Shown here piece by piece: positions 1,729-32,991 of a DNA stretch of 64,000 nucleotides. The notes under the pieces are model-generated. The model saw only the letters and a list, made by a program, of their open reading frames with translations, was not told the origin of the DNA and ran no database searches. The DNA is from Roseobacter cerasinus. Its GTDB lineage: Bacteria > Pseudomonadota > Alphaproteobacteria > Rhodobacterales > Rhodobacteraceae. The first letter of the stretch is position 1. Every line of letters starts with the position of its first letter. Location of the stretch: NCBI RefSeq assembly GCF_009811755.1, contig NZ_BLIV01000010.1, positions 1-64,000 of the forward strand, given 5' to 3'. Made by a program: the position numbers and the translations under genes.

Positions 1729-4700
1729 ATGCCAAAAAGAACCGATATCAAGTCCATCATGATCATCGGTGCTGGCCCTATCGTGATTGGTCAGGCCTGC
1801 GAGTTTGACTATTCCGGCGCGCAAGCCTGCAAGGCGCTGAAAGAGGAAGGCTACCGCGTCATCCTCGTGAACTCCAACCCTGCGACGATCATGACCGACC
1901 CTGGGCTGGCCGATGCGACCTATATTGAGCCCATCACACCCGAGATGGTCGCAAAGATCATCGAAAAGGAGCGGCCCGATGCGCTGCTGCCCACCATGGG
2001 CGGGCAGACCGGGCTGAACACTTCTCTGGCGCTGGAAGAGATGGGTGTGCTGGACAGGTTCAACGTCGAAATGATCGGCGCCAAACGCGACGCCATCGAG
2101 ATGGCTGAAGACCGCAAGCTCTTCCGCGAGGCGATGGACCGTCTGGGCATTGAAAACCCCCGCGCCACCATTATCACCGCCCCCACAGATACAAATGGAA
2201 AGAAGGACTTGCAGGCCGGAGTTCAAGCAGCACTTGAAGCACTGGAAGAGGTCGGCCTGCCCGCGATCATCCGTCCTGCCTTCACCATGGGCGGCACCGG
2301 TGGCGGTGTGGCCTACAACCGCGATGACTATGAGGCGATCTGCCGGTCGGGCATGGATGCCTCGCCGGTGGGGCAGATTCTCGTGGACGAATCCCTGCTC
2401 GGCTGGAAAGAGTTCGAGATGGAGGTGGTGCGTGACACCGCCGACAACGCCATCATCGTCTGCTCCATCGAGAACGTGGACCCGATGGGCGTGCACACCG
2501 GCGATTCCATCACCGTGGCCCCGGCACTGACGTTGACCGACAAGGAATACCAGATCATGCGCAACCACTCCATCGCGGTGCTGCGCGAGATCGGAGTGGA
2601 GACGGGCGGCTCCAACGTGCAATGGGCGGTGAACCCGGATGATGGCCGCATGGTGGTGATCGAGATGAACCCGCGGGTCAGCCGCTCCTCGGCGCTCGCT
2701 TCCAAGGCCACGGGCTTCCCCATCGCCAAGATCGCGGCGAAGCTCGCCGTGGGCTTCACCCTCGATGAGCTCGACAATGACATCACCAAGGTCACGCCCG
2801 CGAGCTTTGAGCCGACCATCGACTATGTGGTCACCAAGATCCCGAAATTCGCCTTCGAGAAATTCCCCGGCTCCACGCCGGATCTGACCACCGCGATGAA
2901 GTCGGTGGGTGAGGCCATGTCTATTGGCCGCACCATCCACGAGAGCCTGCAAAAGGCGCTGGCCTCCATGGAGCAGGGGCTGACCGGCTTCAACGAGATC
3001 GACATCCCCGGCGCGCAGGATCCAACTTCCGGCAAGGCCGCGATCACTAAGGCCCTGGCAGCGCAGACGCCCGACCGGCTGCGGGTCATCGCGCAGGCCA
3101 TGCGCGAAGGGCTGGAGGATGACGAGATCCACGCCATCACACGGTTCGATCCGTGGTTCCTTGCTCGGATCCGTGAGATCGTCGACACGGAACAGACTCT
3201 GGAAAGCGAAGGGCTGCCGCAGGAGGCCGCGCCGCTGCGCGCGCTCAAGATGATGGGCTTCACCGACGCGCGTCTGGCTGAGTTGACCGACCAGACAGAG
3301 GCCGAGGTGCGCAGCCTCCGCCAAGCCGCGGGCGTTACGGCGGTCTTCAAGCGCATCGACACCTGTGCCGCCGAGTTCGAAGCCCAGACACCCTACATGT
3401 ACTCCACCTATGAGGCGCCCGTCTTTGGCGAAGTGGAATGCGAGGCGCGCCCTTCCGACCGCAAGAAGGTGGTGATCCTCGGCGGTGGCCCCAACCGCAT
3501 CGGGCAAGGCATCGAGTTCGACTACTGCTGCTGCCACGCCTGCTATGCGCTGACGGATGCGGGCTATGAAACCATCATGGTCAACTGCAACCCCGAGACG
3601 GTCAGCACCGACTACGACACGTCAGACCGCCTCTATTTCGAACCGCTCACCTTCGAGCATGTGATGGAGATCCTCCGGGTCGAGCAGGACAATGGCAAGC
3701 TGCACGGGGTCATCGTGCAGTTTGGTGGCCAGACTCCGCTGAAGATTGCACAAGCACTGGCCAACGAAGGCATCCCGATCCTCGGCACCACACCCGACGC
3801 CATTGATCTGGCCGAGGACCGCGAACGCTTTCAGCAACTGGTGCAGTCCCTCGGCCTCAAGCAACCGAAGAACGGCATCGCCCACTCCGACGCCGAAGCT
3901 CTTGAGATCGCAGCAGAGATCGGCTTCCCGCTGGTGATCCGGCCGTCTTACGTCCTCGGTGGCCGCGCGATGGAGATCGTGCGCGATCAAGCCAGCCTTG
4001 AACGCTATATCTCTGAGGCCGTGGTGGTCTCGGGTGACAGCCCGGTGCTGCTCGACAGCTATCTTGCAGGTGCCGTCGAGCTTGACGTCGACGCGCTCTG
4101 CGACGGGACAGAGGTGCATGTCGCGGGTATCATGCAGCATATCGAGGAGGCGGGCGTGCACTCAGGTGACAGCGCCTGTTCCCTGCCGCCCTACTCCCTG
4201 CCCCGAGACATCATCGCCGAGATTGAGAAACAGACCCACGCGCTCGCCAAGGCGCTGAATGTGGTGGGCCTGATGAACGTGCAATTCGCAATTAAGGACG
4301 GCGAGATCTACCTCATCGAGGTGAACCCCCGCGCCTCCCGGACCGTGCCCTTTGTGGCAAAAGCGACGGATAGCGCCATCGCCTCCATCGCCGCGCGTCT
4401 GATGGCGGGTGAGCCGCTGTCGACCTTCCCGCATCGCCCGCCCTATGACGCGGATGCCGCCTATGAAGCCACCTTACCTCTGGGCGACCCAATGACGCTG
4501 GCGGACCCCAACATGCCATGGTTTTCGGTCAAGGAGGCCGTTCTGCCCTTCGCCCGCTTCCCCGGCGTTGACACGCTGCTGGGTCCGGAAATGCGCTCCA
4601 CCGGCGAGGTCATGGGCTGGGACCGCGACTTCCCCCGCGCCTTCCTCAAGGCGCAGATGGGCGCAGGCATGGTGCTGCCGCCCAAAGGCTGCGCCTTTAT

Positions 4701-5073
4701 CTCGATCAAGGATGCGGACAAGACCGACGATATGCTCGACACCGCGCGCATCCTGCTGGATCAAGGGTTTACGCTGGTCGCCACCCGCGGCACCGCCGCG
4801 TGGCTGAACGAGCACGGCATGACCTGCGGCACGGTCAACAAGGTCTATGAGGGCCGCCCCGATGTGACCGACATGATGAAGGACGAGGCCATCCATCTGG
4901 TGATGAACACCACCGAAGGCGCACAAGCGGTGGAGGACAGCAAGTCGATCCGCGCCATCGCGCTCTACGACAAGATCCCCTATTTCACCACTGCCGCCGG
5001 CAGTTACGCCGCAGCGCTGGCAATTCGCGCGCAGGCTGACGGCGACGTGGGTGTGAAGGCGCTGCAGGGGTAA
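1729..5073 (+). CDS. carB: Carbamoyl-phosphate synthase large subunit
   Basis: The 1114-aa product makes carbamoyl phosphate from bicarbonate, 2 ATP and ammonia delivered by CarA, for pyrimidine and arginine synthesis. The two internally homologous halves are visible. Half one starts [20 protein letters not shown]. Half two starts near residue 578 with [19 protein letters not shown]. Each is followed by ATP-grasp segments ending in [19 protein letters not shown] and the equivalent [19 protein letters not shown]. The C-terminal MGS-like allosteric domain (from about 983, [15 protein letters not shown]) is intact. The length is normal for alphaproteobacteria, slightly longer than E. coli. carA is not in the window. 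Confidence 0.98.
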
Positions 5074-5225
5074 AGCGCAAGGACCTGCCCCGGCCCGCCC
5101 GGCAGACAACAAGGCAGCGACCTGTCAGACACCAGACGACGGTGGCGTGCGGCGGTTGTTGGACGCATGCACCCGGCCACGAAGACTCCCACACGGTCAC
5201 GGCCGCCCCTTGTCCCGCAACACAT

Positions 5226-5240
5226 GTTCACTTAATGTTC
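5226..5240 (+). promoter_or_regulatory. Candidate LexA (SOS) box, GTTC-N7-GTTC
   Basis: GTTC at 5226-5229 and GTTC at 5237-5240 are separated by seven bases (ACTTAAT). This is exactly the direct-repeat operator described for LexA in Rhodobacter and other alphaproteobacteria. It sits 37 bases before the start of the GFA-family gene, in the only gap upstream of it. One or two such 8-base matches are expected by chance in 64 kb at this GC content, so the position, not the match alone, makes it interesting. Confidence 0.4.
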
Positions 5241-5277
5241 TCTTCATACACCCATGAATCACGAGGAGAACCGCATA

Positions 5278-5676
5278 ATGATCCCTGGAAGTTGTTGCTG
5301 TGGGGCGGTCAAATTCGAATTGCTGACCCCACCTTACATGATGGGAACATGCCACTGCTCGCGATGTCGCAAGGCCGGAGCCAGCGTGATTGCCTTCATC
5401 AAGAAAGACGATTTGAGATGGATCCAGGGCCGCGAGTCCATCAAGGTGTTCGCCCCCAAGGCACCCTACAAATACAGCCGCTGCTTTTGTAAGATATGCG
5501 GGTCTTCGCTGGGCGAGATACTTTCAGACGCCGACAGCTTTCCAATCGCTGCCAATGCTCTCGACGCGGACATAAGCGTGAGAAATCAATTCCACGAATT
5601 CGTTTCCGAAAAACCCGCCTGGTACGAGATCTGTGATGACGCGGAGCAGTTCGAAGGGCATCCGACCAGCGCCTAG
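5278..5676 (+). CDS. GFA-family (glutathione-dependent formaldehyde-activating-like) zinc protein
   Basis: The 132-aa protein has the GFA/Mss4-like cysteine pattern: CCCGAVKF near the start, CHCSRCRKAG about 25 residues later, and CFCKICGSSLG near residue 65. These cysteines bind zinc in the family. Members include Gfa-type S-hydroxymethylglutathione enzymes, but most are uncharacterised, so a true formaldehyde role is not shown. The ATG at 5278 is preferred over an in-frame ATG at 5254 because GAGGAGAA (5263-5270) lies 7 bases before it. A possible LexA box is upstream. No partner gene is co-directional. Confidence 0.85.
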   Translation: MIPGSCCCGAVKFELLTPPYMMGTCHCSRCRKAGASVIAFIKKDDLRWIQGRESIKVFAPKAPYKYSRCFCKICGSSLGEILSDADSFPIAANALDADISVRNQFHEFVSEKPAWYEICDDAEQFEGHPTSA

Positions 5677-5713
5677 TTTGACGGAACGGCGGTCAATGAA
5701 ACCGCCCGGCGCC

Positions 5714-6088
5714 CTACTCCGCCTCGACACGCTCTTGCTCATCGTCTGCGATCAAACGATGCGCGGCCTCGATCACATGCGCTTGTGTGAAGGGCCGCGC
5801 AAGATGCTGCCAATGCGGGAACAGCCGCCGGTCCCGCAGGTCCAGAGTGATCACCCCGCGCTGTTGCAGCCAGTCAACGTCGGGTGGATCGAGCACCAGA
5901 TGCCCGTCTTGTGCCGCGACAAACACCAACATCGGGTCAAAGTCACCCTCGGGCGCCGCCCGGGCCTCGGCCACCGTTTCAAACACCCGGCTGACAGTGC
6001 TCGGATTCCAGAACGCAAAGATCCCCGCAATGTCCTGAGAGACCAGCGGATCACGGATGACAATCGCAACGCATAGGGTGTTGTCCAA
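5714..6088 (-). CDS. Degenerate receiver-like domain protein, 124 aa
   Basis: The 124-aa product has the size and strand/helix rhythm of a CheY-like receiver. A hydrophobic first strand is followed by an acid (VAIVIRDPL), a central strand (PMLVFVAAQD) follows, and a late ARPFT stands where receivers have KPF. The acidic pair, the phosphoacceptor Asp and the conserved Lys are not clearly present, so it would be a pseudo-receiver that cannot be phosphorylated in the normal way. The start is TTG at 6086-6088 with GAGGA about 7 bases upstream. It is divergent from the FNR-like regulator 80 bases away. Confidence 0.6.
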   Translation of the reverse strand: MDNTLCVAIVIRDPLVSQDIAGIFAFWNPSTVSRVFETVAEARAAPEGDFDPMLVFVAAQDGHLVLDPPDVDWLQQRGVITLDLRDRRLFPHWQHLARPFTQAHVIEAAHRLIADDEQERVEAE

Positions 6089-6168
6089 ACTGTTTCCTCA
6101 CATCAAACGCTGACTATGGAACCCTTTGCGAGCCTTTGCATTAAACTATGACATAGCAGGAGTAGAAA

Positions 6169-6897
6169 ATGACCACCGACTGCAAAGCTTGCCCGCTCCG
6201 CAGCCAACCCATTTTTGACGACATGACCCAGGATGAACTGGAGAAGACCCGGCGGTTCAAATCCGGCGAGCTCGCGGTTGACCCGGGCACACCAATTCTC
6301 ATGGAAGGATCGAACGCGCCCCAGCTCTATACGGCCCTGCGCGGCATGGGCCTGCGCTACAAGACACTGCCGGATGGCAATCGCCAGGTGATCAATTTCA
6401 TCTTCCCCGGTGACTTCATCGGGCTGCAGGCCAGTATGCTGGGTGAGATGGGGCATTCGGTGGAAGCGACCACGCATATGACCCTCTGCGTCTTCGACCG
6501 CGGCGATTTCTTCGACTTCTTCCGCAGCTCCACTGCGCGCGCCTTTGACATCACCTGGCTTGCCGCAACCGAGGAACATTTTCTCGGCGACACGCTGGCC
6601 ACCGTGGGTCAGCGCGATGCCATCTCGGCAATTGCCTGGGCTTTTGTGCGCATTTTCCAGCGGGCCGAAACCCTGGGCTTGGTCCGCAACGGCGTCATGC
6701 CGTTTCCGTTCAAGCAGCAGGATGTGGCGGACGCGCTGGGTCTCTCTCTTGTGCATACAAACAAGACCCTGGCCCGCCTGCGCGAACGCCAGCTTTTGGC
6801 CTGGAGCGACAACACATTGAAGATCCACGATCTGGCCGAGCTTGCCACCGTCGCAGACATGGAGCTTGAGGCCGTCAAGCCGCGCCCGCTGATCTGA
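6169..6897 (+). CDS. Crp/Fnr-family transcription regulator with FNR-like N-terminal cysteines
   Basis: The 242-aa protein has the FNR/CRP plan: an N-terminal cysteine stretch (CKACPLR), a cyclic-nucleotide-binding beta-roll (about 22-135), a dimerisation helix, and a winged HTH (about 183-235) with recognition region LSLVHTNKTLARLR. Cys5, Cys8 and Cys107 sit exactly where E. coli FNR has Cys20, Cys23 and Cys122 (constant offset of 15). The position of FNR Cys29 is proline. It may hold an iron-sulfur cluster with a non-Cys ligand, or none. It is not the standard four-Cys FnrL. The targets are unknown. It is divergent from the receiver-like gene. Confidence 0.85.
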   Translation: MTTDCKACPLRSQPIFDDMTQDELEKTRRFKSGELAVDPGTPILMEGSNAPQLYTALRGMGLRYKTLPDGNRQVINFIFPGDFIGLQASMLGEMGHSVEATTHMTLCVFDRGDFFDFFRSSTARAFDITWLAATEEHFLGDTLATVGQRDAISAIAWAFVRIFQRAETLGLVRNGVMPFPFKQQDVADALGLSLVHTNKTLARLRERQLLAWSDNTLKIHDLAELATVADMELEAVKPRPLI

Positions 6898-6970
6898 ACT
6901 TGGGCTGGCAGAGGCTGCAAAGTGCCTCGGGGTCCCGGTGCCATAGCATCCACCTAGGAGGCCCGTCCCC

Positions 6971-7039
6971 ATGCAAGACACCCGGTCGGCATGGCTGTCT
7001 CAAACTGGGTCTCGACGTCTGACGCCCCCAATGTCCTAG
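6971..7039 (+). CDS. Possible 22-aa small ORF
   Basis: ATG at 6971 follows a strong Shine-Dalgarno, AGGAGG at 6956-6961, with 9 bases between, and opens a 22-codon frame (starts MQDTRSAWLSQ) ending in TAG. The ribosome-binding site has no other start to serve, since the lipoprotein at 7088 has its own (AAGGAGGT at 7076-7083). The peptide is polar and unlike any family I know. It could be a leader peptide for the downstream lipoprotein gene. Confidence 0.2.
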   Translation: MQDTRSAWLSQTGSRRLTPPMS

Positions 7040-7087
7040 GCTGTGTGTCATAGGATCAAGCATTTTTAACGTCGAAGGAGGTCCCAA

Positions 7088-7375
7088 ATGCGTCGTCTTG
7101 CCTGTCTTCCCGCCCTTGCTCTCATAGCCTGTGCCCCCGCGCCGGAGCCCGTGACGGGCACACTGCCGATCTTTGGCGATGGCTATCGCTTCAAGGGCGA
7201 TATCTGCCGCCGCGTGGGCGAAGATGATTTCACCAACCCGTTCCTCGATGATGCCGCTGATCTGGTCGCCTGCCCCGAAGATGCCGAAAACCTCGGCGTC
7301 TTTGTGATCGACACCGGCGCAGAAGAAGTGGCCCGGCGTGACGGCTATGTGCTCTTTTCGGTTCCGCTGCGCTGA
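7088..7375 (+). CDS. Small lipoprotein, 95 aa
   Basis: A short lipoprotein signal (MRRLACLPALALIAC) ends in the lipobox LIAC, so Cys15 would be lipidated and the mature 80-aa domain would sit in the periplasm. The mature part (GDGYRFKGDICRRVGED, then a second Cys in LVACPEDAEN) contains two cysteines that could form a disulfide. The Shine-Dalgarno AAGGAGGT (7076-7083) is excellent. I do not recognise a family. The next gene is co-directional after 122 bases. Confidence 0.75.
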   Translation: MRRLACLPALALIACAPAPEPVTGTLPIFGDGYRFKGDICRRVGEDDFTNPFLDDAADLVACPEDAENLGVFVIDTGAEEVARRDGYVLFSVPLR

Positions 7376-7497
7376 GCATCTGACCTCTCCACAATGCGCT
7401 CTGCGACCTCACCACCCTCGGTGAGACGTTGCGTCCCGTCGCTTGACCTGCGGACGGGAATTCCCACATGGTGGCGCACCTTTTTGGAGACAGTTTC

Positions 7498-8622
7498 ATG
7501 AACACGCCCGTTATCACCGGCGCCGGTGTGCACACGCCATCAGACGTCATCACCAATGCCGAGCTGGTGGCCGCGTTCAACGCCTATGTCGACCTCTACA
7601 ACACCAAGCATGCGGATGAGATTACCTCCGGTGAGCTGCCGGCAAAAGAATATTCCTCTGAGGAGTTCATCGTCAAAGCCTCGGGGATCGAACAACGCCA
7701 TGTCGTCGACAAAACCGGCATACTGGATCCAACGGTCATGCACCCGCTGCTGCGTCAACGGCAGGATGACGAACCTTCTTTGATGGCAGAGATCGGTCTG
7801 AAAGCCGCGCAAAGCGCGCTTGATCAGGCGGGAAAAACTGCGGATGACATCGATCTGGTGATCTGTGCTGCCTCGAATATGGAACGGGCATACCCGGCCG
7901 TGGCCATTGAAATCCAGCACCTTCTGGGCGTGAGCGGCTTTGCCTTCGACATGAATGTCGCCTGTTCGTCGGCCACCTTCGGCATCCAGGCCGCCGCCGA
8001 CATGATCCGATCCGGCAGCATCCGCGGCGCATTGGTGATCAACCCAGAGATTTGCTCGGCCCATCTGGAGTGGCGGGATCGCGATTGCCATTTCATCTTT
8101 GGCGATGTGGCTACCGCCACCCTGCTTGAACGGCAAGCAGCCGCCACGGGCCCATTCTTCAGGGTGCTCTCAACCCGCTGCGCAACGGAGTTCTCCAACA
8201 ATATCCGTAACAACAACGGATATCTGCGGCGCTCACGTCCCGCTGGTATGGCGGATCGCCGGGACATGCAGTTCATGCAAAACGGGCGGAAGGTGTTCAA
8301 GGAAGTGCTGCCCATGGTCTCGGACCACATCGCGCGCCATATGGCGGAGGGCAGCGTCGCGGCGGCGGATCTACGGCGGCTCTGGCTGCATCAGGCCAAC
8401 AAGACGATGAATGACTTCATCGGCAAAAAGGTCCTGGGGCGGACGCCGCGCCCTGACGAGCAGCCCAATATCCTGCAGGATTATGCGAATACGTCCTCTG
8501 CCGGGTCGATCATCGCCTTTGCCAAGTACTCAGGCGATCTGGAGGCCGGAGACAAGGGGCTGATTTGTTCCTTTGGCGCGGGCTACTCGGTGGGGTCAGT
8601 TCTGGTGGAACGCGCAGGCTAG
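7498..8622 (+). CDS. Beta-ketoacyl-ACP synthase III-like enzyme
   Basis: The 374-aa thiolase-fold protein has the KAS III triad: Cys156 in MNVACSSATFG, His298 in LWLHQANKTMN, and Asn331 in YANTSSAGSI. The closing GAGYSVGSVLVER is also typical. At about 50 residues longer than E. coli FabH, it resembles the FabH-like group that includes Pseudomonas PA3286, which condenses an acyl-CoA with malonyl-ACP. It therefore probably feeds medium-chain acyl-CoA into fatty-acid synthesis rather than being the housekeeping FabH. The ATG at 7498 (GGAG about 9 bases upstream) is preferred to an in-frame ATG at 7468. The final CTAG is shared with the convergent gene. Confidence 0.88.
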   Translation: MNTPVITGAGVHTPSDVITNAELVAAFNAYVDLYNTKHADEITSGELPAKEYSSEEFIVKASGIEQRHVVDKTGILDPTVMHPLLRQRQDDEPSLMAEIGLKAAQSALDQAGKTADDIDLVICAASNMERAYPAVAIEIQHLLGVSGFAFDMNVACSSATFGIQAAADMIRSGSIRGALVINPEICSAHLEWRDRDCHFIFGDVATATLLERQAAATGPFFRVLSTRCATEFSNNIRNNNGYLRRSRPAGMADRRDMQFMQNGRKVFKEVLPMVSDHIARHMAEGSVAAADLRRLWLHQANKTMNDFIGKKVLGRTPRPDEQPNILQDYANTSSAGSIIAFAKYSGDLEAGDKGLICSFGAGYSVGSVLVERAG

Positions 8623-28165: not shown

Positions 28166-28900
28166 TCACGCGGGCCAACGTGCTTCGAAAACAGTCCCAC
28201 TGTCGGCTTCCGACGCGGCAACCTGAATATCACCCCCATGCAGGCGAACAATTTTCCGCGCAATCGCCAGACCCATTCCGCTGCCTTCCACCTCGTCTCG
28301 CGGACGCAAAGTTGTCATTGCGCCAAAGATACGGTCCTCGAACTCAGGCGCGATGCCGGGACCGTCGTCAGCAACAGTGAGGACGACATCAGAGCCTTCT
28401 TTCCGACTGCTGACCACGATTTCTCCGGATATCTTGTTGTGATGCTTGATCCCATTCGACACAAGAACCGTCAGCAAGGTGAGCAGGTCACGCTCGCCAA
28501 ATCTGAACCGGGCATGCTCCAGCGTCCGCTTTATCTTGAACCCTGCTGGAATTGGTAGCTCATCAAGCACGTCATCCAGAGCGGCAGCAAGATCGACCTC
28601 CACCACCGATTGCATCCGCCCAACCCGTGAAAAGGCAAGCAGATCAACCAGCATGCGATCCAGCCGTCCCGTATGGCGGTTCATCAACTCGATGCTTTCC
28701 CCAATCGACCCGTCCATCCGGACCCCCGCCTCCGCCAGATCCTCCTCGATCCATTGGGGCAATTCGATCAGGGCGCGGACAGAGCTACGCACATCGTGAC
28801 TGATCAGATAGATGAAGTCCTCGAAATCCGATGAAGCCGCCACCTGTCTGGACGGGTCTTCCGCCATTGCGGTCCCGGTCGAAAGAGCGTTTGTGGTCAT
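28166..28900 (-). CDS. Soluble histidine kinase without sensor domain
   Basis: The 244-aa protein has no membrane span and no PAS or GAF domain. About 22 N-terminal residues are followed directly by the HisKA phosphoacceptor (His35 in YLISHDVRSSVRAL) and the HATPase (about 110-243), with VLVSNGIKHHNK (N box), VADDGPGIAPEF (G1) and RDEVEGSGMGLAIARKI (G2). The HisKA and LRPRDEVEGSG region is closely similar to that of the membrane kinase at 30552, so the two look like paralogues. The ATG at 28900 has TTGGAG 9 bases upstream. It lies 77 bases downstream of the solute-binding protein gene, probably in one transcript. Confidence 0.88.
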   Translation of the reverse strand: MTTNALSTGTAMAEDPSRQVAASSDFEDFIYLISHDVRSSVRALIELPQWIEEDLAEAGVRMDGSIGESIELMNRHTGRLDRMLVDLLAFSRVGRMQSVVEVDLAAALDDVLDELPIPAGFKIKRTLEHARFRFGERDLLTLLTVLVSNGIKHHNKISGEIVVSSRKEGSDVVLTVADDGPGIAPEFEDRIFGAMTTLRPRDEVEGSGMGLAIARKIVRLHGGDIQVAASEADSGTVFEARWPA

Positions 28901-28977
28901 CAGATCGGACTCCAAAAAGGCCTAAGTCGGCGTAGGCTACCTCAGAGCGTTGAAGACACCGTTAAGGCCCGTTGCGT

Positions 28978-30468
28978 TCAGGTGCTTTTTGCATCACGCA
29001 GGACCCTGGCGATATTTGCCGGGTAGCGGGCGCGCAGCTGTCGCCACCGCGTGATCTGCCGGGCGCGGCCATAGCGGCTGGTGATCATTTCCCACAGCTG
29101 CGCCGTTCGGTCCAAGGCACCGCGCGGATCCGTCTCTCCGCTCAATACAGCAAAAAGCGCGTCATTCAGCACCCGAAAATACTCCGAATGACCGTGAAGG
29201 TAGAGGTCCGGAATAGCCTGTTCCAAACTGGCCTTATGTACCGTCAAGAATTCGGGTGAATAAACCTCGCGGATCTTTGAATCAGCGTAGTGTTCGGGCC
29301 GGTTCGGGTCGAAAAAGCCCCCGGCTTCGCGGACGGACCGGGTCGACATTTCCGGCGTCGAGGCGAAGAGCGAGAAGAGGTATCCGATCCGGGGGCGGGA
29401 GGATGCGCGATTGACGACAAAGCTCCACCCCCAATTGAAATAGGGGATAGAGACCGGCGCGCCACCCGGCCCAAGCGGCCCTCCCGGAGGGGCGCCGTAG
29501 GTCAGCCGCCCGCGCAAGGCCGCGCCCTTTTCATTGAAGGACTTTTGCGCGCCCCCCCAGCCAATGTTGCAATAGGTCTGCCCGCGCAAGAACGCCTCCC
29601 AATTCTCGACAAATGTGAAGCTGCCAGTACCCGGATGTAGATGTTCGGCTGAGCGGCGCATGTCTGCCAGTGCGACATGTCCCTCGGGCGTGTTTATCTG
29701 ACACTCCATATCTTCGGAAAAAGGCCACATGCCATACCCATGCAACCGCATCCAGAATTCCCAGGCCACATAGTCGGGCGTGCGCAGCAAAAGCCCTCCG
29801 AAAAGGCCCTCATCCGGCCGATGAAACCAAGCCATCTGCCTGTCCAGCTCTTCCCAGGTCTGCGGGACGTCAAGGGCAGTGCCATATGTATCCGCGTACC
29901 TTGCCTGTTCGACCGGATCCTGCAAAACTTCCTTCAAGTAGAACATGATGTAGGCGTCGCCATCCGCCTGAAAACCATAGGTTTTTTGATCTACAGTATC
30001 GCCTAACCGGTAGATCGACCCCTCGCGAAAGCCGGCAGGCTCATAGGCGTCCACAAAATCATCCAAAGGCAGAATAACGTCAGATGACACAAGATCCGGC
30101 AAGCCGTAGGTCGCTGGCAGCGCCACATCAAAACTGCCCTCACCCGCGATCACTTCCAAGGCGATACGCGCCGTCAGGCTGTGTGAGGCAATACTGCGAA
30201 GGTCAATCTCAACCCCGGTCATGGCGGTAAAGGCCTGCGTGATCGGAAATAGGTTGCGCTGCGATCCCTCGGGGCACAGAACCGACAGTTTTCCCGGCGC
30301 AGGCCCTGTGGCATCGCGAACCCATTGGGCAACCTGCTCATGCAAAGTGAGATCTGCAGCCATCGCAAGATGAGCGGGAAGAGCCCCAGACACCGCGCAG
30401 GCAGCTCCGGATCGTAAAAAGGCCCGGCGGCCAAATGTCATGCTCTTGGATGGGTTCCGATCTGTCAA
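28978..30468 (-). CDS. Tat-exported extracellular solute-binding protein
   Basis: The 496-aa protein has an N-terminal twin-arginine signal (GRRAFLRSGAACAVSG, cleavage near AHLAMA-AD) and a family 1 type periplasmic binding fold typical of ABC sugar or oligosaccharide receptors. Segments include GEGSFDVALPATYGLPDLV, DAYIMFYLKEVL and VAWEFWMRLHGYGMWPF. No permease or ATPase is encoded nearby. It is flanked by two histidine kinases and a response regulator, so a sensing role is likely. The TTG start at 30468 is supported by AGGAGG 8 bases upstream; the alternative is an ATG nine codons in. Confidence 0.85.
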   Translation of the reverse strand: MTDRNPSKSMTFGRRAFLRSGAACAVSGALPAHLAMAADLTLHEQVAQWVRDATGPAPGKLSVLCPEGSQRNLFPITQAFTAMTGVEIDLRSIASHSLTARIALEVIAGEGSFDVALPATYGLPDLVSSDVILPLDDFVDAYEPAGFREGSIYRLGDTVDQKTYGFQADGDAYIMFYLKEVLQDPVEQARYADTYGTALDVPQTWEELDRQMAWFHRPDEGLFGGLLLRTPDYVAWEFWMRLHGYGMWPFSEDMECQINTPEGHVALADMRRSAEHLHPGTGSFTFVENWEAFLRGQTYCNIGWGGAQKSFNEKGAALRGRLTYGAPPGGPLGPGGAPVSIPYFNWGWSFVVNRASSRPRIGYLFSLFASTPEMSTRSVREAGGFFDPNRPEHYADSKIREVYSPEFLTVHKASLEQAIPDLYLHGHSEYFRVLNDALFAVLSGETDPRGALDRTAQLWEMITSRYGRARQITRWRQLRARYPANIARVLRDAKST

Positions 30469-30551
30469 ATCTGACGCCTCCTGACCTCAACTCAGGTTGT
30501 AGTCCTTCGTATTTAAGATGGGTTTAATCCTTCCAACGTATTTCAGAGGAT

Positions 30552-32528
30552 GTGAACACAAACAGAACATCCAGCGCGACACACCGCGGCCGTTTTTCTG
30601 GCATTGTCACGCGCCTTCGGCTGCTTTTCGTGCTGCTGGGTGTCGTGACCATAGCCGCTTGCGTGGCTGGTCTGATGCAGTTACGCCAGATATCTGCCGC
30701 ACAAAAGGCACTCAATGACCGGGCCCTTCCCGCCCTGATCCAGACCCAAACGGTTGAACGCAGCTTGAATGATATGTTCTTGGCGCTCGAACGGGCCACC
30801 TACGCCGAAAATGAGGTCGATCTTCGCACCACTCAGATGGAACTGGCAGATCGAATCACCTTGTTTCGAACCGCCATCCATGAGGCCGCACGCATTCAGG
30901 GACGCGCCAACCCCTCCGCCGCGCTGATGGCCGAATTCACCGAGTTGGAGATAACCATCACGCAATTGGTCGCCGGGCAGAGACAATTGTTCGAGACCGA
31001 GACACGGCTGGCGCGTTTGCGGGACGAGCTGGAAGACATCGGCGCCCGGGCCAGCGAGGCTCTCACCAAACTGCGGTATGATACGACGGTGCAGATCGAG
31101 AGCATATTGACCAGCGCGCGGTCCGGCGTGATATCCCAGACGGATACGATTGATCAGCTCTTTTCAGATCTCTTCCTCGCCTCGCTCAATCTGGCAAGTC
31201 TCAAAACGGATCTTGATGCGGTCATTGACCTGTCTCTCAGCGCAACAGACTCAGACTCCGCCGAGCTGGATCGTGGTCTGAACGCACATCTTGAGATGAG
31301 TTTGAACCGTATGGCCGCTGTGCTGTCACAGCTCAGCGCCAGCCCGCAGCGTCGCAGCCTGGCAAGTCTGACACTCCGTCTGAATGATTTGATCCTGGCA
31401 GATGAGGGCCTGCTCGCCATTGCGGAGGCGAAATCGACCTATCGGGACGAACTTCTTGATCTGCGCGTGGCGCGCGCCGACATCACGCGCGAAGTTAAGC
31501 AGTTCATCGACATCATGGCTGCAGACGCCAATCTATTGGTGGCAGACCGGTCCAAGCGCCTAAGCGACGCGACACGGCTGCTGTCCATTGTCTTGATGGT
31601 CTGCGTCTTTCTCGCGGCGATGGCAACGCTGCTGGGCAATTCCATTGTCATCGAAAAGCAGATCAACCGACGCATGGAAAAGCTTCGAGAAGCCGTATGC
31701 GCCATTGCAGACGGTGATCTCGACCATCCTATCGATATCGCTGGCAATGACGAATTGGCCGACATCGCGCAGGCGCTTCATATTTTCAAGCAAAACGCCG
31801 AAGAATTGCGGCGCTCAAATGTGGATCTGGAGCGATTTGCTTATGTTGCCGCACATGACCTGCGCAGCCCGCTGAGGGCCGTGCAGGATCTGGTGGACTG
31901 GACCTTGGATGACGAGCAGACCGCCCTATCCGAAGAGAGCAGGTCTTACATGGACATGGCGCAAAGTCGTGCGCGACGGCTCGACCGGCTTCTGACCGAC
32001 CTGCTTGACTATGCACGGACAGGACAAGAACGGCATGTCATGACAGAAGTGGATGTGGAGGATTTGGTCACGCAGGTGTCCGCCATGATCTCTCCACCCA
32101 AGTCTTTCCAGATTTCTTTCGAAGGAGACTTACCTGTCCTGCGAACTTTCAAGACACCGCTGACGCAAATTCTGATAAATCTGATTTCGAATGCCATCAA
32201 GCATCATGATCGGGCGGACGGAAAGGTTGTTGTCTCCGCCAGGCAAGATCTGAACCGGCTGGTCCTTGAAGTTTCAGATGATGGCCCTGGCATTCCGGTA
32301 AAGTACCAAAACCGGATCTTCGAGCTGTTCCAGACCCTGCGCCCGCGCGACGAGGTTGAGGGCAGTGGGATTGGGCTTGCGATTATCGAGAAGATTCTGG
32401 AGCGATACGGCTCGCACCTCGCGGTGGTGTCAGACCCCGAAACGAAACGCGGCGCCGCTTTCCGGTTCGATTTCCCGATTGACCACATCGTGGAAACATC
32501 TGTTCGGCCATCGGCAACAGCCGCCTGA
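30552..32528 (+). CDS. Membrane histidine kinase with large helical periplasmic domain
   Basis: The 658-aa protein has TM1 (about 21-43), a 298-residue all-helical periplasmic region, TM2 (342-363) and a HAMP domain (365-417). A HisKA with His435 (YVAAHDLRSPLRAV) and a HATPase with LISNAIKHHDRADG, VSDDGPGIPVKYQ and RDEVEGSGIGLAIIEKI follow. The long helical sensor between two spans resembles TorS, which reads a periplasmic binding protein. The start is GTG at 30552, with the only purine-rich stretch (AGAGGA) unusually close. It is divergent from the binding-protein gene (83-base gap) and followed by its likely partner regulator. Confidence 0.93.
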   Translation: MNTNRTSSATHRGRFSGIVTRLRLLFVLLGVVTIAACVAGLMQLRQISAAQKALNDRALPALIQTQTVERSLNDMFLALERATYAENEVDLRTTQMELADRITLFRTAIHEAARIQGRANPSAALMAEFTELEITITQLVAGQRQLFETETRLARLRDELEDIGARASEALTKLRYDTTVQIESILTSARSGVISQTDTIDQLFSDLFLASLNLASLKTDLDAVIDLSLSATDSDSAELDRGLNAHLEMSLNRMAAVLSQLSASPQRRSLASLTLRLNDLILADEGLLAIAEAKSTYRDELLDLRVARADITREVKQFIDIMAADANLLVADRSKRLSDATRLLSIVLMVCVFLAAMATLLGNSIVIEKQINRRMEKLREAVCAIADGDLDHPIDIAGNDELADIAQALHIFKQNAEELRRSNVDLERFAYVAAHDLRSPLRAVQDLVDWTLDDEQTALSEESRSYMDMAQSRARRLDRLLTDLLDYARTGQERHVMTEVDVEDLVTQVSAMISPPKSFQISFEGDLPVLRTFKTPLTQILINLISNAIKHHDRADGKVVVSARQDLNRLVLEVSDDGPGIPVKYQNRIFELFQTLRPRDEVEGSGIGLAIIEKILERYGSHLAVVSDPETKRGAAFRFDFPIDHIVETSVRPSATAA

Positions 32529-32538
32529 GGAGCTCTCA

Positions 32539-32991
32539 ATGGAACTTGCACTGAAAGCGAACACGACGACCGAAGCGACTTTTCTGCTCATCGACGATGA
32601 CCTGATCAGCATCATGTCGATGAAAAGGGCGTTGAAAAAACTAAAGATCGTGAACAAGACACTTGTCGCCAAGGACGGTCAGGAGGCGCTCGACATCTTG
32701 CGACAGGCCGTGGTCGCCGGGGCCGGGAAATTGCCCCCTTTCATTGTGACGCTGGACATTAATATGCCGCGGATGAATGGGATCGAGTTTCTTGAGGCAA
32801 TCCGCGCCGATCCATGTTTACAGCGGTTGGTGGTTTTCGTTTTCACGACCTCGGACATGCCAGATGACGTGCAGTCGGCCTACAGCAAGAACATTGCAGG
32901 GTATCTTGTGAAGGACGATCTGGGAGATAAACTCGCCGATGCTCTCGACATGCTCGGCAGCTACGCCCGCATCGTGGAACTGCCCGTTTGA
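32539..32991 (+). CDS. Single-domain response regulator (Rcp1-like)
   Basis: The 150-aa receiver has the acidic cluster LLIDDD (19-21), phosphoacceptor Asp73 in TLDINMPRMNG, the switch Thr in VFTTSD (about 103-104) and Lys125 in GYLVKDD. There is no output domain, so it acts by binding a partner or as a phosphotransfer intermediate. The extended loop before Asp73 (VVAGAGKLPPF) is typical of Rcp1-type regulators that pair with phytochrome-like kinases. The ATG has GAGGAGC about 8 bases upstream. It starts 10 bases after the kinase. Confidence 0.92.
   Translation: MELALKANTTTEATFLLIDDDLISIMSMKRALKKLKIVNKTLVAKDGQEALDILRQAVVAGAGKLPPFIVTLDINMPRMNGIEFLEAIRADPCLQRLVVFVFTTSDMPDDVQSAYSKNIAGYLVKDDLGDKLADALDMLGSYARIVELPV

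Follow-up and report, generated by a model that had tools for sequence, protein, structure and literature searches.

What does a solute-binding protein (SBP) do when no importer is encoded beside it and its neighbours are two histidine kinases and a response regulator? This question is raised by a four-gene island at positions 28166 to 32991 of the window, by which we mean the whole analysed stretch of 64,000 nucleotides from Roseobacter cerasinus (contig NZ_BLIV01000010.1). We consider it likely that the island encodes a three-component input, consisting of the binding protein, a membrane kinase with a TorS-type sensor domain and a receiver, to which a second, soluble kinase has been added. 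The pairing of the binding protein with the membrane kinase is very probable from sequence comparison. All four open reading frames (ORFs) lie where the first-pass annotation of this DNA had placed them, and their Pfam domains agree with it. The features are:

28166..28915, minus strand: soluble histidine kinase of 249 amino acids (aa), dimerization/histidine-phosphotransfer and catalytic core (DHp-CA) only (ORF and Pfam)
28978..30468, minus strand: extracellular binding protein of the twin-arginine translocation (Tat) type, predicted MalE-type fold (ORF, Pfam, profile, AlphaFold model)
30469..30551, no strand: divergent intergenic region of 83 bases, no sigma-70-like site found
30552..32528, plus strand: membrane histidine kinase, 658 aa, GTG start (ORF, Pfam, hydrophobicity)
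30663..31589, plus strand: helical periplasmic sensor domain of predicted TorS type, kinase residues 38-346 (profile, AlphaFold model, Foldseek)
31656..31802, plus strand: HAMP domain, membrane kinase residues 369-417 (Pfam, E 5.4e-9)
31827..32027, plus strand: HisKA domain, membrane kinase residues 426-492 (Pfam, E 4.8e-10)
32154..32480, plus strand: HATPase_c domain, membrane kinase residues 535-643 (Pfam, E 5.7e-23)
32539..32991, plus strand: single-domain response regulator of the Rcp1 or bacteriophytochrome-partner type (Pfam, PDB comparison)

The distance of 83 bases between the divergent starts, given already in the first-pass annotation, is right for the starts as annotated; an alternative ATG at codon 10 of the binding protein gives a gap of about 110 bases. 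The binding protein had also been described as lacking a permease. In keeping with this, the ORFs between 24 and 37 kb, gone through by eye and with no profile scan, include no ATP-binding cassette (ABC) permease gene. An adjoining permease and ATPase, likewise sought by eye in the window, are missing there and are present in nine sister loci.

Conserved neighbourhood of binding protein and kinase

The family sample comprised 295 genomes from 294 genera. The binding protein is matched at E<=1e-30 in 21 of these genomes, in 22 places, 14 of which (the window included) are at least 38% identical to it in the alignment and eight 25-30%. We fetched 20 stretches, 13 with close and seven with distant relatives; genome G008 was not fetched beyond its first locus. 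A large kinase ORF diverges from the binding-protein gene in 11 of the 13 close-relative stretches. A contig end lies at this point in the other two, and one of these has its kinase and receiver on another contig, again at the end (L188). The seven distant-relative stretches gave no kinase match, and most have permease-like ORFs by eye. Moreover, a TorS-type sensor is found in 12 of the 13 family genomes whose binding protein reaches 38% identity; in the thirteenth, a genome 64% complete, the binding-protein gene is at a contig end.

A scan of named-species genomes kept 80 of 86 loci. It used two peptide patterns, and the sample is biased to proteins with those motifs; gene calls in the fetched loci are our own ORF picks, with exact starts and some neighbours uncertain. 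Loci were counted as kinase-linked if a kinase of at least 550 aa lay within 400 bases of the binding-protein gene, and as importer-linked if MalF/MalG lay within 1.5 kb. By these rules 59 of the 80 loci are kinase-linked (53 divergent, 6 downstream), nine are importer-linked, 12 are neither and none is both. One kinase-linked locus, L119, has MalF/MalG-type genes about 3 kb from the binding protein. The kinase is accompanied by the single-domain receiver in 37 loci, the binding protein is followed by the soluble kinase in 18, and 17 loci, all of them from Roseobacteraceae or Paracoccaceae, have the full set of four; L064 of Sulfitobacter mediterraneus DSM 12244 is one with the full set. Conservation of the neighbourhood, which the first-pass annotation had named as a way to check its proposal, is thus borne out for the binding protein and the kinase, and the opposite pattern, homologues consistently beside ABC permeases and away from kinases, did not appear (nine loci against 59).

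In four of the 12 loci that are neither, the binding-protein gene is at or near a contig end (L062, L068, L070, L109), and L123 is cut, with importer-type genes upstream. Kinase ORFs are present in L115 and L096 and were missed by the gap or length rules. The kinase is split into two ORFs in L087 and the binding protein into three in L126, L081 has a different receptor and in L103 a membrane ORF is cut by the contig end; the twelfth, L114, is taken up below.

The arrangement of binding protein and kinase recurs in Roseobacteraceae, Paracoccaceae, other Alphaproteobacteria, Granulosicoccaceae and Bdellovibrionota. Nine Roseobacter/Sulfitobacter loci have recurring flanks, with genes named from the starts of their sequences: one like the drug/metabolite transporter (DMT) family and a lipase-like one in all nine, an amidohydrolase-like one in eight and groEL in seven. 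Beyond these nine loci the flanks vary, which argues that the module is a unit and not the by-product of one neighbourhood. Single genes of these families are common, and unrelated two-component genes might have gathered by chance beside the leftover binding protein of an importer; the arrangement recurs across lineages with differing flanks, and with the neighbourhood conserved we reject this explanation as having next to no probability.

How the binding protein came to stand beside a kinase is suggested by its tree, which has 80 rows (76 of the 80 loci, the window and three distant importer proteins). Four loci whose binding protein is broken or partial were left out (L115, L123, L126, L128), and four were labelled 'sensor' by hand from the neighbouring receptor gene (L081, L087, L096, L103), the label of L103 resting on the cut membrane ORF. 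One clade of 68 rows, 63 sensor-linked and five unknown, has an SH-like approximate likelihood ratio (SH-aLRT) support of 100 and is nested inside the importer rows. A single change of state suffices on this tree, in support of a one-time recruitment of the binding protein from importer ancestry. The tree search was a quick one, the program warned of long branches in the outgroup, and it is on this outgroup that the direction from transport to sensing depends.

The sensor domain and its binding proteins

The membrane kinase matches HAMP, HisKA and HATPase_c in Pfam and is not a hybrid kinase, since neither Response_reg nor Hpt is matched. Its hydrophobic stretches (19-residue windows starting at 15-27 and 337-350) leave about 300 residues between them, which fits the 298 periplasmic residues of the first-pass annotation. 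No 19-residue window of the soluble kinase or the binding protein passes the same hydrophobicity cut. A profile of 54 sensor domains finds TorS as its best match in the PDB (3i9w, 1.2e-5; 3o1h, 1.9e-3; 3i9y, 2.0e-3). Of the 35 PDB matches of this profile at E<=1, those other than TorS are for the most part coiled-coil or helical, and a designed helical protein (1.1e-4) falls between the TorS entries. The Pfam family TorS_sensor_domain (PF21689) matches seven of the 54 members at E<=0.01, the best at 2.7e-13. The AlphaFold model of the sensor domain, with a predicted local distance difference test score (pLDDT) of 90.1, is all-helical. All six Foldseek matches of this model at E<=0.001 are TorS, with template modelling (TM) scores of 0.67-0.77 by target length, and PilJ and McpS come next. 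Neither a LuxQ- nor a LytS-type system is among the best 50 of 712 fold matches; with an all-helical model, LuxQ/PDC (PAS-like) or other sensor folds are not supported. The structural comparison with TorS that had been proposed earlier thus identifies the periplasmic domain, by profile and predicted fold, as TorS-type.

The binding protein matches SBP_bac_8 (1.1e-17) and SBP_bac_1 (4.3e-15), and its twin arginine, R14/R15, is kept in at least 90% of 14 aligned sequences, the window included. Its AlphaFold model (pLDDT 95.9) is closest in fold to the trehalose/maltose-binding protein 1eu8; MalE3 and SmoF also match, and TorT is absent among the listed matches. A TorT-type (LacI/RbsB-like) identity is rejected on these Pfam families and on a MalE-type profile and fold. 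By sequence and model the binding protein is MalE-type, so that a TorS-type reader here pairs with a different kind of binding protein.

The analogy with TorT/TorS drawn in the first-pass annotation therefore holds better for the kinase, which has a homologous sensor domain, than for the binding protein. Like TorT-TorS-TorR, which senses trimethylamine N-oxide, the island has a helical periplasmic sensor domain on a histidine kinase and an adjacent binding-protein gene. It differs in that its kinase lacks the receiver and phosphotransfer domains of a hybrid, in having an output-less single-domain receiver in place of the DNA-binding TorR, in its additional soluble kinase and in that no tor reductase genes were recognised among the ORFs listed around it. 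Pairs of a TorT-like and a TorS-like protein occur in their own right in other family genomes. With SBP-dependent sensor kinase (three-component) systems in general the island shares the conserved adjacency of SBP and kinase; its SBP has no importer of its own beside it, and MalF/MalG lie within 1.5 kb in none of the 59 kinase-linked loci. The sensor folds of XylFII-LytS and LuxP-LuxQ differ from the TorS type. In both, according to PMC6321045, a binding protein presents ligand to the sensor domain of a kinase, as proposed here; the earlier comparison with LuxP/LuxQ and ChvE/VirA accordingly holds as an analogy only. Bacteriophytochrome-Rcp1 pairs resemble the island in their receiver (6xvu is closest), whereas the island kinase has a periplasmic sensor and no chromophore domains. 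Ruminiclostridium, a further case, is Gram-positive. Its cellobiose system CuaD-CuaS-CuaR has a family-1 sugar-type binding protein dedicated to sensing, with adjoining kinase and regulator, but the outer domain of CuaS is modelled as beta sheets around long helices and not as TorS-type, and the importer operon cuaABC-cbpA lies downstream of cuaDSR (PMC10384115). A literature search, judged by titles and the openings of abstracts, found no described system with the gene set of the island; subscription journals were mostly outside its coverage.

Other classes of binding protein, too, adjoin TorS-type sensors. At E<=1e-5 the sensor profile matches in 38 of the 295 genomes, in 42 places, the weaker of which may be other helical sensors. 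Twelve of the 42 belong to the module of binding protein and kinase, one being split over contigs; 19 of the other 30 were inspected, and 11 of the 42 were not looked at. Of the 19, nine adjoin TorT-like proteins, three LivK-like (Peripla_BP_6), two SBP_bac_11/6 and two DctP-type proteins, and for three no binding protein was found by the queries used. Thus 28 of the 31 inspected places adjoin a binding-protein gene, a count that includes genome G079, in which the two genes are on separate contig ends. Eight of the 16 neighbouring binding proteins were scanned with Pfam, and the other eight were assigned by similarity to these. For two of the nine TorT-like proteins the PDB was searched: TorT comes second, at 5.7e-64 and 8.2e-62, behind 4yhs, an entry named as an uptake protein. 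The outputs of the TorS-type heads vary and include hybrid kinases, a chemoreceptor and a HAMP-GGDEF-EAL protein.

NspS-MbaA of Vibrio cholerae consists of a binding protein and a GGDEF-EAL receptor, as does a relative of the island. In this locus (L081:5303-7882, minus strand) a protein with HAMP, GGDEF and EAL diverges from a binding protein of the sensor clade; its sensor domain is probably TorS-type, the Pfam TorS_sensor_domain match (1.2e-4) scoring 22.2 bits where the curated cut-off is 27. The same input would then have a cyclic di-GMP (c-di-GMP) output. That a change of output leaves the sensor head and the binding protein together is the best comparative argument for direct contact. 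Together with the conserved adjacency, the one sensor-linked clade and the TorS-type domain, it strongly supports the earlier idea that the binding protein loads the membrane kinase.

Two further TorS-type places were noted in passing. In the window's own genome (L184, contig C8) a TorT-like binding protein at 4676-5734, the one matching TorT at 8.2e-62, adjoins a chemoreceptor at 5799-8198 with TorS_sensor_domain (2.2e-15) and MCPsignal (1.1e-43) in Pfam, apparently a pair for binding-protein-dependent chemotaxis. At L169:4746-6863 (genome G123) a TorS-type sensor is broken by stops, with no binding-protein gene nearby by the queries used, and looks like a decaying copy.

Several observations weigh against a working pair of binding protein and TorS-type kinase. 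The window's own sensor domain is unmatched by Pfam TorS_sensor_domain. At L114 neither kinase nor permease was recognised beside the binding protein. At L035, the second copy in genome G151, a kinase adjoins, but the sensor profile search lists no TorS-type sensor there. In G266, which alone represents the window's genus in the sample besides the window's own genome, neither the binding protein nor the sensor is matched. A promoter scan of the island region gave no promoter-like site (0 against 2.6 expected). Distances between sensors correlate with those between binding proteins at a rank r of 0.38, and of 0.22 without the kinase core (reached in 0 of 999 permutations), and the correlation of the binding protein with the kinase core, 0.62, is above that with the sensor. 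The sensor domains are near saturation, with a median identity of 13%; co-evolution by distance correlation, being weak and confounded by this saturation, was dropped as support. Furthermore, gene neighbours of this kind are not always linked: PMC11113362 describes AgtS and AruS, kinases next to SBP genes, as having failed tests for such a link, and gives ten of 11 characterised SBP-kinase couples as gene neighbours.

In a rival explanation the binding protein still serves an importer encoded elsewhere, and the kinase beside it senses something else or transport flux; the cases of unlinked neighbours count in its favour. The window's genome has 13 matches at E<=1e-15 to the MalG-type permease of an importer relative, but these are just 26-42% identical to that permease, and the binding proteins they use were not checked. 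Apart from itself, the binding protein has one match in the genome at E<=1e-5, 26% identical. Against service to such an importer, the sensor-linked and importer clades are distinct, ABC genes and a kinase never directly flank the binding protein in one and the same locus, and the same sensor clade also pairs with the GGDEF-EAL receptor. We give service to a distant importer little chance, and prefer loading of the membrane kinase.

The receiver and the soluble kinase

The receiver matches Response_reg (1.6e-16) and no other Pfam family, and has no output domain. Its best solved relative is 6xvu (1.3e-22), followed by 8avv, a chain named bacteriophytochrome and response regulator; Rcp1, RcpA and RcpB appear lower in the PDB list. 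As its closest solved relatives are bacteriophytochrome/Rcp1 regulators, it is by sequence Rcp1-type.

The soluble kinase matches HATPase_c at 4.6e-22 and HisKA at an E of 0.022, under the Pfam cut-off. All 20 soluble kinases that were aligned, the window included, have H40, D41, N154, D183, G185, G187, G213 and G215; the kept residues are the phosphoacceptor histidine and those of the N, G1 and G2 boxes. The motif LRPRDEVEGSG, reported earlier for both kinases, is indeed found in both. Within the genome, the soluble kinase has the membrane kinase as its nearest paralogue (E 1e-39; next match 2e-13). Elsewhere in the genome the second-best match of the receiver, C1:453377, adjoins the third-best match of the soluble kinase, C1:453709, which indicates that this type of kinase and this type of receiver go together. 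Because of the paralogy and this co-location it is plausible that this receiver takes a second input from the soluble kinase, as the first-pass annotation had proposed. Counting against a shared receiver, the soluble kinase is absent behind the binding protein in 20 of the 37 loci where a receiver adjoins the membrane kinase; the receiver does not, then, depend on the soluble kinase. For comparison, the single-domain receiver MrrA is fed by several kinases and passes phosphate on, in the account given in PMC5964349.

The same account has PhyK taking phosphate from MrrA. With this precedent, the HisKA match under cut-off and the 20 loci without a soluble kinase, there is an appreciable, if smaller, chance that the pair of binding protein and membrane kinase is real and that the soluble kinase is a phosphatase, works on a different regulator or, like PhyK, serves as a DHp scaffold accepting phosphate from the receiver. 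The invariant autokinase residues speak for an active kinase, and its nearest paralogue being the membrane kinase suggests a shared partner specificity. We therefore keep the second input to the receiver as the preferred role.

A hairpin with a T-run, terminator-like, lies at 28920-28937 (minus strand) between the binding protein and the soluble kinase and could reduce expression of the latter; terminator-like sites are not enriched in the region (5 against 5.2 in shuffles). Ten loci have an extra receiver with a C-terminal extension near the module, and these were aligned: L052:4575-5276, L053:3467-4258, L054:4986-5801, L055:4660-5337, L056:4446-5138, L058:6850-7515, L059:4478-5302, L064:10273-10995, L065:10399-11202 and L119:4639-5316. 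In the five extended receivers that were scanned, three of them from the aligned ten, Pfam matches nothing but the receiver domain. The extended receiver may be a partner of the module, for output or relay. Searches of the window's genome gave no full-length counterpart, the matches there centring on the receiver part.

In the mechanism that we propose, the MalE-type binding protein would catch a small solute in the periplasm and, once loaded, dock on the TorS-type helical sensor domain and not on an ABC permease, as the comparisons suggest. Loading would alter autophosphorylation of the membrane kinase through the second transmembrane segment (TM2) and the HAMP domain, on the model of TorS. 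The phosphoryl group would then pass to the adjacent Rcp1-type receiver, to which the conserved adjacency points. Since it has no output domain, the receiver would act by protein contact or by handing the phosphate on. The soluble kinase, a sensorless paralogue of the DHp-CA core of the membrane kinase, would most likely exchange phosphate with the same receiver as a cytoplasmic or feedback input, a step that we hold less firmly.

Ligand leads and significance

The importer relatives offer a hint, from their gene contexts, that C3 hydroxysulfonates are the ligand. An HpsN-like dehydrogenase is found in eight of the nine importer loci. The one in L079 matches sulfopropanediol dehydrogenase at 1.1e-121 as against histidinol dehydrogenase at 2.2e-70, and the other seven are 65-77% identical to it. 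In L060, where a sensor binding protein adjoins a hybrid kinase, the dehydrogenase matches (R)-2,3-dihydroxypropane-1-sulfonate (DHPS) dehydrogenase at 2.4e-229, and the LacI regulator is 36-39% identical to those of six importer loci. Xsc lies beside the sensor binding protein in L099, above the curated cut-off, and a SauS match in L071 is under its own. Across 43 sensor-linked and six importer proteins 40 alignment columns are invariant, which makes it likely that sensor-linked and importer binding proteins share a ligand type. Against the sulfonate lead, no sensor-linked locus besides L060 matches the HpsN queries, other sulfonate genes not having been searched systematically, and in the window's genome an HpsN-like enzyme also lies beside ABC genes with no relative of the binding protein there. 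The HpsN of this genome, 80% identical, is on another contig, away from the module.

Eight of the nine importer loci also encode a protein of about 390 aa (L079:13558-14736, with counterparts in L082, L084, L085, L089, L091, L094 and L105). The counterparts are 50-84% identical to the L079 copy, for which neither Pfam nor NCBIfam gave a match at the thresholds applied.

DHPS is a product of phytoplankton and is eaten by roseobacters. In its boldest form, which we think unlikely to hold as a whole, the proposal would make the module a dedicated sensor of a C3 hydroxysulfonate such as DHPS, arisen by a single recruitment and forming a two-kinase hub through an output-less receiver. On a wider view, TorS-type heads would serve at least five binding-protein classes as exchangeable readers, connected to kinases, chemoreceptors or c-di-GMP enzymes.

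The island would be a clean case of an importer binding protein turned once into the sensing partner of a kinase, with living importer relatives for comparison. TorS-type domains stand beside several classes of binding protein, so that neighbouring genes can help to assign signals to kinases. If the organosulfonate hint is true, it names a sensor for a major marine currency of carbon and sulfur.

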